Positions 4,313 to 32,924 of a stretch of DNA of 33,130 bases are shown here, in pieces (position 1 is the stretch's first letter; each line of letters opens with the position of its first letter). This stretch comes from Candidatus Omnitrophota bacterium. Lineage in GTDB: Bacteria; Omnitrophota; Gorgyraeia; 2-01-FULL-45-10. The translations under genes and the position numbers were made by a program. The notes beneath the pieces were generated by a model. That model made no database searches. It was not told where the DNA came from and was given only the letters and a program-made list of their open reading frames with translations. Where the stretch lies: contig JAHJHP010000077.1 in the NCBI GenBank assembly GCA_018823705.1, positions 1 through 33,130 on the forward strand, read 5' to 3'.

Positions 4313-4389
4313 GGACGCGTAGCTCAGTCGGTTGGAGCGCTGCGTTCACATCGCAGAGGTCACAGGTTCGAGTCCTGTCGCGTCCACCA
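4313..4389 (+). tRNA. tRNA-Val (anticodon CAC), CCA encoded
   Basis: Acceptor GGACGCG/CGCGTCC, anticodon stem CTGCG/CGCAG with loop TTCACAT, T-arm ACAGG-TTCGAGT-CCTGT, 3' ACCA. Confidence 0.95.
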
Positions 4390-4429
4390 TCTTGTTGTTT
4401 AAGTCTGGGATGGTGTAGTGTAGAGAGTT

Positions 4430-4535
4430 GGGACTCGAAGCCAATTTTCGCCGACCAGCGGGAGGAAAAGCCCTCCGGGCGACAGAAAATTGGCTGGTCA
4501 GGAGGCCGCCACCGGCGGCCGGATGACCGAGTCCC
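4430..4535. repeat. Compound nested palindrome downstream of tRNA-Val
   Basis: Outer arms GGGACTCG (4430-4437)/CGAGTCCC (4528-4535) enclose AGCCAATTTTC (4439-4449)/GAAAATTGGCT (4485-4495) and GGTCA (4496-4500)/TGACC (4524-4528) with GGCCGCC (4504-4510)/GGCGGCC (4514-4520). Confidence 0.8.
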
Positions 4536-4586
4536 CGCCTGACCGCAGTTAAAAACTATCAGGCGGGCAGGCTGTCGCGTCCACCA
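4528..4586 (+). repeat. Duplicated tRNA-Val 3' end (CGAGTCC + CTGTCGCGTCCACCA) split by a REP-like hairpin
   Basis: CTGTCGCGTCCACCA at 4572-4586 is an exact copy of 4375-4389; CGAGTCC at 4528-4534 copies 4369-4375. Between them lies a CCCGCCTGA...TCAGGCGGGCAGG hairpin. Confidence 0.75.
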
Positions 4587-4593
4587 ACTACGA

Positions 4594-4852
4594 TTTGGCC
4601 TTCGCCAAAAAGTGTGGAACTGTCCCGCCCGGAACAGAACAAGGGGCGGGATCCCGCCCGAAATAGACAGATGGCGGGGCTGTTTGGCTTCGGCCTGCTA
4701 GAGTTAAATAATAGCAGGGCTAGCGCCCAAATCGTTTTAAGGAAAACTTAAATCGGTTTTCCTTAATCCAGATTTTGACGAAGCAAAATCTGGATAGAAC
4801 TACCGTACAAAATCCAAAATTTTCTTTGTAAAATTTTGGGTTAAGGATCCTT
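4594..4852. repeat. Array of consecutive intergenic palindromes
   Basis: TTTGGC/GCCAAA (4594-4609); GGGCGGGATCCCGCCC perfect palindrome (4644-4659); CCTGCTA/TAGCAGG (4694-4718); TTAAGGAAAAC/GTTTTCCTTAA (4737-4766); ATCCAGATTTTG/CAAAATCTGGAT (4766-4795); CCAAAATTTT/AAAATTTTGG (4814-4839); AAGGATCCTT (4843-4852). Confidence 0.75.
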
Positions 4853-4879
4853 TACCTTATGTGGAAGTAATAAAGACAG

Positions 4880-32247: not shown

Positions 32248-32892
32248 ATGGCCTTTATGGGCAGCAATTGGAGTGATCTTAGGAAGCAGGTTCCATGGAA
32301 AGCCATGATTTTCGGATTTTTGATACCGAAAGGTATATTATTTTTAGGCGTAAGCCTGAATATGTTGTTTACGGGCGCGATATTGGCGACCTTATGGTGC
32401 CTGGCTGTATCCGCGGTAGCATATATGAAGGAACGTAAGCTCAATATATTCGCGCTCTTTGCGTTGGCGATGATCTTCCTGCGGGTGGTCGTCATTCTGG
32501 CGAGTAAGAGTCCGGCGCTCTACCTCCTTGCACAGGCCCTGGACAGCGCATTATATGGCCTGATATTCCTCGCGTCTCTATTATTTCCGCGTTCTATTAT
32601 ACAGTTATTAGCGGAGGCATCCGGCGCGATCATCCCGGAAGCGATCCGTAAGAGCCCTTATTATGAAAAGGCCTGGCGTATCGTCACTGGCGTTTGGGCC
32701 GGCACGTTCATCTTTCTGGCGGTGATATTGGCTGCATTGAAGATGAGCAGCTTGAAGTCGGTGGTTGTAGTCGATATGCTGGCATCATGGCCGCTCACAA
32801 TCAGCCTGATAGCATTTACCGTATTGTTTCCCAAGTGGTATTGGAAGAGGACTGTAGCAGTAGCTGACATTCCCGCCTGCACGCAGGAATAA
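32248..32892 (+). CDS. Multi-TM protein, VC0807-like family
   Basis: Several TM segments, ALDSALYGLIFLASLLFPRSIIQLLAE; AGAGGGG RBS. Confidence 0.7.
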   Translation: MAFMGSNWSDLRKQVPWKAMIFGFLIPKGILFLGVSLNMLFTGAILATLWCLAVSAVAYMKERKLNIFALFALAMIFLRVVVILASKSPALYLLAQALDSALYGLIFLASLLFPRSIIQLLAEASGAIIPEAIRKSPYYEKAWRIVTGVWAGTFIFLAVILAALKMSSLKSVVVVDMLASWPLTISLIAFTVLFPKWYWKRTVAVADIPACTQE

Positions 32893-32924
32893 AATTGTAG
32901 GCGGGCAGGTAAACGTCAGCTACT
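32859..32924. repeat. REP-like palindromic element with 10 bp flanking inverted repeat
   Basis: AGTAGCTGAC (32859-32868)/GTCAGCTACT (32915-32924) around CCCGCCTGCACGCAGGAATAAAATTGTAGGCGGGCAGG; same 38-nt layout as the 4533-4570 element. Confidence 0.75.

Follow-up and report, generated by a model that had tools for sequence, protein, structure and literature searches.

The window analysed here is a stretch of 33,130 nucleotides from the genome of a Candidatus Omnitrophota bacterium (contig JAHJHP010000077.1, positions 1 to 33,130). Near its start an intact tRNA-Val gene is followed by a structured body, termed element A below, by a split copy of the tRNA 3' end and by a series of nested palindromes. 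All features are on the + strand:

4313..4389, +, intact tRNA-Val(CAC) (ARAGORN; Rfam RF00005)
4367-4375 and 4369-4389, +, T-arm segment T54-C62 and 3' end C56-CCA of tRNA-Val, both reproduced downstream (sequence)
4390..4429, +, spacer from tRNA-Val to element A, homologous to the spacers of G005 (without A) and G269 (with A)
4430..4534, +, structured body of element A, closed by stem P1 (covariance models R1 and R2; covariation)
4431..4437, +, 5' strand of P1, GGACTCG, an inverted copy of the T-arm sequence CGAGTCC of tRNA-Val (sequence; comparison across 68 loci)
4528..4586, +, right copy: 21 nt repeating the 3' end of tRNA-Val, in the pieces 4528-4533 and 4572-4586, the first 7 nt being the 3' strand of P1 (sequence)
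4534..4571, +, hairpin E, a 38-nt dispersed palindrome inside the right copy (CCCGCC...GGGCAGG; same unit at 32872-32909)
4587..4865, +, repeat B, multi-hairpin, 3' limit approximate; elsewhere it begins directly after the CCA of tRNA genes
4623..4679, +, hairpin C, a dispersed palindrome within B that the B copies L003 and L004 lack
4767..4842, +, hairpin pair D, two dispersed palindromes within B that the B copies L002 and L003 lack

A first-pass annotation of this DNA had noticed that the tRNA-Val 3' end is duplicated about 200 bp downstream and that the duplicate is split by a hairpin, and this observation is correct. The segment CGAGTCCTGTCGCGTCCACCA (4369-4389) is repeated as CGAGTC(C) at 4528-4533(4) plus CTGTCGCGTCCACCA at 4572-4586. 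When the 38-nt hairpin (4534-4571) is set aside, the copy is exact from C56 to CCA, 21/21, which within about 200 bp is far beyond chance. The heptamer CGAGTCC (4528-4534) has a second role as the 3' strand of the stem closing the structured element at 4430-4534. Its partner, the 5' strand GGACTCG (4431-4437), is its reverse complement, and the extended left strand, GGACTCGAA to 4439, matches tRNA-Val T54-C62 in inverted orientation. The interval 4390-4586 folds with a z-score of -4.8. It had been described as holding only nested palindromes and no integrase; no ORF of at least 80 aa was found in it, in keeping with the latter part of the description, while 4430-4534 is a member of a conserved structured family and not just one more palindrome.

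BLAST searches in relatives identify 4430-4534 as a dispersed repeat of ~105-125 nt, of which this is the sole intact body found in the source genome. Covariance model R1, built from 13 copies of A, has matches in 58/292 genomes of the class, and model R2, built from 79 copies, in 61/384 genomes of the phylum, other classes included. The named records of A all come from Candidatus Omnitrophota. A strict pattern scan of GTDB species genomes gave matches in Omnitrophota only; the model searches covered Omnitrophota. The Rfam 15 covariance models have no match over element A, and a literature search limited to open-access papers brought up no description of it. A viral source was rejected, as the pattern of A has no match in IMG/VR. 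Element A is explained by no known family. Its structure consists of the closing stem P1, a long P2 that encloses an internal hairpin, and P3; the internal hairpin is flanked by the conserved unpaired blocks CGCCGA, GAGGAAAAG and CGNNAG. In the alignment 91.5% of cells are paired, 19 of the 24 pairs show double changes, and double-change cells number 385 against a shuffled mean of 110. The covariation of element A is strong. Its conserved unpaired core points to binding by a protein or to a function as RNA, neither of which has a part in the reading favoured below. Regarding a likeness of this core to RNase P RNA (GAGGAAAAG, CGACAG), model R1 with filters off gave no match on the RNase P gene of the window, and the candidate was rejected.

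The tRNA-Val arrangement recurs beside dozens of other tRNA genes. The first-pass annotation had proposed to search relatives for the unit beside further tRNA genes, and this succeeded strikingly. Nearly all copies read first lie just 3' of tRNA genes (Gln, Leu, Tyr, Val, Lys). Among the 79 copies examined, 68 are downstream of a same-strand tRNA gene detected by ARAGORN, mostly 10-60 nt away, and the tRNAs concerned represent more than 20 anticodon types. As for the other 11, one adjoins a tmRNA whose 3' end is copied (L172), two adjoin a tRNA-Asn split by a group I intron, with Rfam matches to the intron (L125 and L168), one lies by the 3' end of a tRNA gene at the edge of a contig (L163), two are themselves cut by contig ends (L139, L140) and one has a tRNA-Val that begins before the contig start (L053); the rest are near degenerate tRNA-like sequence or nothing recognisable. 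A tRNA-Tyr of the source genome (L067, after tRNA-Thr) also looks split by a group I-like intron.

In nearly all cases the ends of element A fit the tRNA beside which it lies. From C56 onwards the right copy is identical to the adjacent tRNA at a mean of 19.8/21 positions, and the left strand agrees with the reverse complement of the adjacent T-arm at 7.5/8; when the tRNAs were permuted 2000 times, the latter value was 6.03/8 with a maximum of 6.37. The outer boxes of A, GGANTYG and CRANTCC, are copies of the T-arm. They form a P1 stem of 7-8 bp, the 3' strand of which runs on into the tRNA copy from C56, and this right copy usually stops at the tRNA end and sometimes extends into spacer or terminator. 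In G096, one copy at tRNA-Lys and one at tRNA-Tyr have bodies that are 98% identical and P1 stems that differ, each fitting its own tRNA. In L053 (G005) the right copy fits its tRNA and the left strand corresponds to the type of a different tRNA, which is what a recent arrival should show. Both the identity of the family and the tailoring of its ends are secure.

The 21-nt copy could also have been read as what is left of a tandem tRNA gene that palindromes broke later, and partial tRNA genes of this kind exist. In four genera (G005, G006, G014 and G020; loci L052, L020, L025 and L055) a tRNA-Val that ends at nt 56, its 3' part replaced by a C-type hairpin that cuts it at the T-loop, lies upstream of the intact tRNA-Val gene. 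At the A loci that were read the second block is not such a remnant. There the copy begins at C56 whichever of many isotypes it derives from, and likewise at a tmRNA, and the left flank is an inverted T-arm. No 5' tRNA part is seen; tandem decay is therefore rejected for the A loci and is highly improbable as an account of the copy.

At many loci a perfect 21-nt copy is followed by an unrelated spacer, so a simple long target-site duplication with neutral decay does not fit all cases. Perfect copies next to diverged spacers would be consistent with selection on A as a structured RNA, possibly catalytic or guide-like, that is retained next to tRNAs for a function related to the T-arm, its bodies evolving in concert and P1 being selected for pairing. 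The strong covariation, the conserved unpaired core and the use of the tRNA's own T-arm sequence in P1 all agree with such a role. It is nevertheless hard to reconcile with the patchy distribution (58/292 genomes, and one intact copy in the source genome against 10-13 in G015), with copies of A that are often decayed, truncated or split, and with several copies after terminators; we regard this explanation as unlikely. Spacers of about 40 nt at different tRNAs (L133, L127, L137, L138, L147 and L057) share, 6-9 nt upstream of A, the motif TTTTAAGGT or TTATAAGGT, which may be a promoter or belong to a longer element end.

The unit is not unique, and it has element-free counterparts. At tRNA-Leu-GAG of the source genome the spacer is uninterrupted and A is missing, while in G003 and G015 the homologous spacer contains A and a 21-nt copy. 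At Val-CAC, the spacer in the window can be aligned with its A-free counterpart in G005, and the identity ends where A starts. Exact tandem units occur at L058, L059 and L191. The last unit of an array is often 3'-truncated (L126, L136, L156, L160, L166, L179, L206) and retains 8-60 nt from the start of A in addition to the copied tRNA 3' end and the spacer. The duplication spans all or part of the spacer at L158, L159 and L134 and reaches into the terminator at L196. Empty sites and arrays together suggest a mobile or homogenised DNA element. The mean identity of A bodies is 65% at different tRNAs within a genome versus 53% at the same tRNA between genomes, kinship being ignored, and this likeness within genomes could reflect gene conversion in place. 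Mobility rather than homogenisation in place is the likely case.

Exact tandem units and arrays of one unit and a part are what an integrative cassette would leave. In such a scheme a circle composed of C56..CCA-spacer-A would enter the T-loop by means of a tyrosine recombinase, either host Xer or one supplied elsewhere, and A would act as a folded, single-stranded, attC-like site with P1 as its paired core boxes. The boundary in the T-loop, the use of both tRNA and tmRNA targets, the resemblance of P1 to complementary core boxes and the presence of tyrosine recombinases in every genome of the family are compatible with this. However, spacers differ among the tRNAs of one genome even where the bodies agree, and the G005 spacer is kept without A; the spacer thus seems local. 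Moreover, a cassette carrying the 3' end of one tRNA would create a hybrid tRNA at another, and G015 and G003 have just two Phage_integrase proteins per genome, probably XerC/XerD. A cassette is therefore the less probable origin, although we hold it somewhat likelier than an RNA kept for its function.

Whether copying takes place on DNA or on RNA can be approached through tRNA genes that lack an encoded CCA. Their copies mostly lack CCA too (L160, L176, L178, L191), and at L192, L193 and L196 the copies lie beyond terminator-like hairpins, which argues for copying at the DNA level. An RNA route, in which the 3' fragment left by tRNA cleavage becomes attached to A and a reverse transcriptase copies the product into DNA, would account for the many copies that stop exactly at CCA and for their beginning at C56. 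It would also account for L199 (tRNA-Ser of G310), where, counter to the other CCA-less genes, the gene has no encoded CCA and the downstream 3' copy has one. The absence of CCA from most copies at CCA-less genes weakens copying of a mature tRNA, with L199 as one possible exception, and no RVT_1 match was obtained in G015. We consider the RNA route very unlikely.

Partner enzymes were looked for in G015, which is rich in A (10-13 copies) and 93% complete, and in other genomes. No RVT_1, Y1_Tnp or PF07282 match was found in G015, and a retroelement, a REP/RAYT system and TnpB were rejected as partners on that ground; the A-rich genomes are MAGs, from which a gene may be missing through an assembly gap, and at 93% completeness the absence is suggestive, not proof. 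RVT_1 is present in 7/26 genomes of the family and absent from the A-rich G015, G016 and G012. Y1_Tnp was found in none of G015, G014 and G017, and PF07282 (TnpB-type nuclease) in 1/9 A-carrying genomes tested.

The layout is not restricted to one body. At tRNA-Asp of the source genome (L211, 1459-1720) there is a second conserved body, G, unrelated to A and arranged in an A-like way, and further G bodies are located at tRNA-Val of G245 (L222) and G269 (L212) and at tRNA-Met of G011 (L216). First comes an inverted copy of the T-arm, at most some 20 nt long and altered at the same two bases in every case; the body and the direct 3'-end copy follow. G repeats the layout of A, so the layout, and not one sequence, is the general feature. 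The end stem of G carries tandem GA mismatches.

Other repeats have settled around the same tRNA ends. Hairpin E has three exact-pattern copies in the source genome; the view that a dispersed hairpin interrupted the tRNA copy later is borne out by this. Repeat B (ACGATTTGGCC...) stands directly after the CCA of tRNA-Met, Val, Lys and Ala genes in the source genome and, in the window, directly after the copied CCA. Its copies (window 4587-4865, L002, L003, L004, L007, L008) show compensatory changes in the outer arms. The D pair (4767-4842) is flanked on both sides by TTAA, suggesting a TTAA target duplication. Degenerate 3'-end copies follow the Asp, Thr-CGT, Pro-GGG and Glu-TTC genes of the source genome, some with C-type hairpins in place of the body. 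A hairpin TCCTACTTCGCTC...GAGCTTCGTAGGA is found after the CCA of tRNA-Pro, of tRNA-Leu and, in G003, of tRNA-Val (L078, L090, L045).

Comparison with known systems gives partial likenesses. Islands integrated in tRNA and tmRNA genes and integrase-less CIMEs share with A the target from T-arm to 3' end (tyrosine integrase, T-loop sublocation), the direct repeat of the tRNA 3' part at the far end, which A also has, and tandem accretion. Unlike these, A has neither integrase nor cargo, and no larger version was seen at the A loci read; it has a covarying structured body of 105-125 nt and carries on its left a T-arm copy in inverted orientation, and one body serves many tRNAs with its ends retailored. 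The duplicated 3' end had been proposed as a possible footprint of a remnant or of a minimal non-autonomous element. In outline the minimal element tied to tRNA 3' ends holds. The remnant of an integrase island finds no support, since a conserved structured family with an inverted left end that also matches the tRNA is not what a classical att footprint predicts. Integron attC sites and their cassettes are similarly folded, with complementary outermost short boxes and tandem arrays, but in A the boxes are tRNA-specific T-arm copies (GGANTYG / CRANTCC) and not RYYYAAC/GTTRRRY, there is no cassette gene, and single copies sit at scattered tRNA genes. REP/BIME elements with their RAYT (Y1) and MITEs are small, dispersed, intergenic, palindromic and non-autonomous, as A is, and the window hairpins E, C and D are REP-like in look. 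A differs from them in its position and orientation, which are fixed relative to tRNAs, in ends copied from the target and in the lack of a Y1_Tnp match in G015. Group II introns, retrons and IS605 omega-RNAs likewise combine a structured sequence with a segment complementary or identical to the target; A, in contrast, has no Rfam match, G015 has no RVT_1 or TnpB match, and the target-matching ends differ per tRNA.

Based on these results we favour, with a probability of roughly 0.55, the reading that the duplicated 3' end of the tRNA forms the right-hand terminus of a structured DNA repeat that is non-autonomous and has spread or been homogenised among Omnitrophota tRNA and tmRNA loci. Insertion would be linked to the T55|C56 step in the T-loop and would duplicate the tRNA 3' end. 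The left strand would be matched during or after insertion, by copying from or correction against the new T-arm, and the enzyme may be the host's or may have been lost. The window copy would then be a decaying one, with hairpin E interrupting its right copy and repeat B lying after the copied CCA. More tentatively, A and G may represent a class of mobile structured elements with at least two unrelated bodies, in which the terminal inverted repeat is rewritten at each insertion from the T-arm and 3' end of the target tRNA, one strand being a direct duplication and the other a target-templated inverse copy. Such a class would need no transposase, integrase or reverse transcriptase of its own to move.

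What is new here is the conserved structured family itself, its target-matched inverted left end and its recurrence at many tRNAs and a tmRNA. Mobile elements normally have fixed ends and a chosen target. Element A keeps its folded body and has ends that fit the target and are different at each tRNA. Ends of this kind call for target-templated end formation or for continual correction against the tRNA, and we know of no element family that provides either. The analysis brings to light a structured family that is distributed across a little-known phylum, and element A offers a reason for the nested palindromes around tRNA 3' ends in Omnitrophota.
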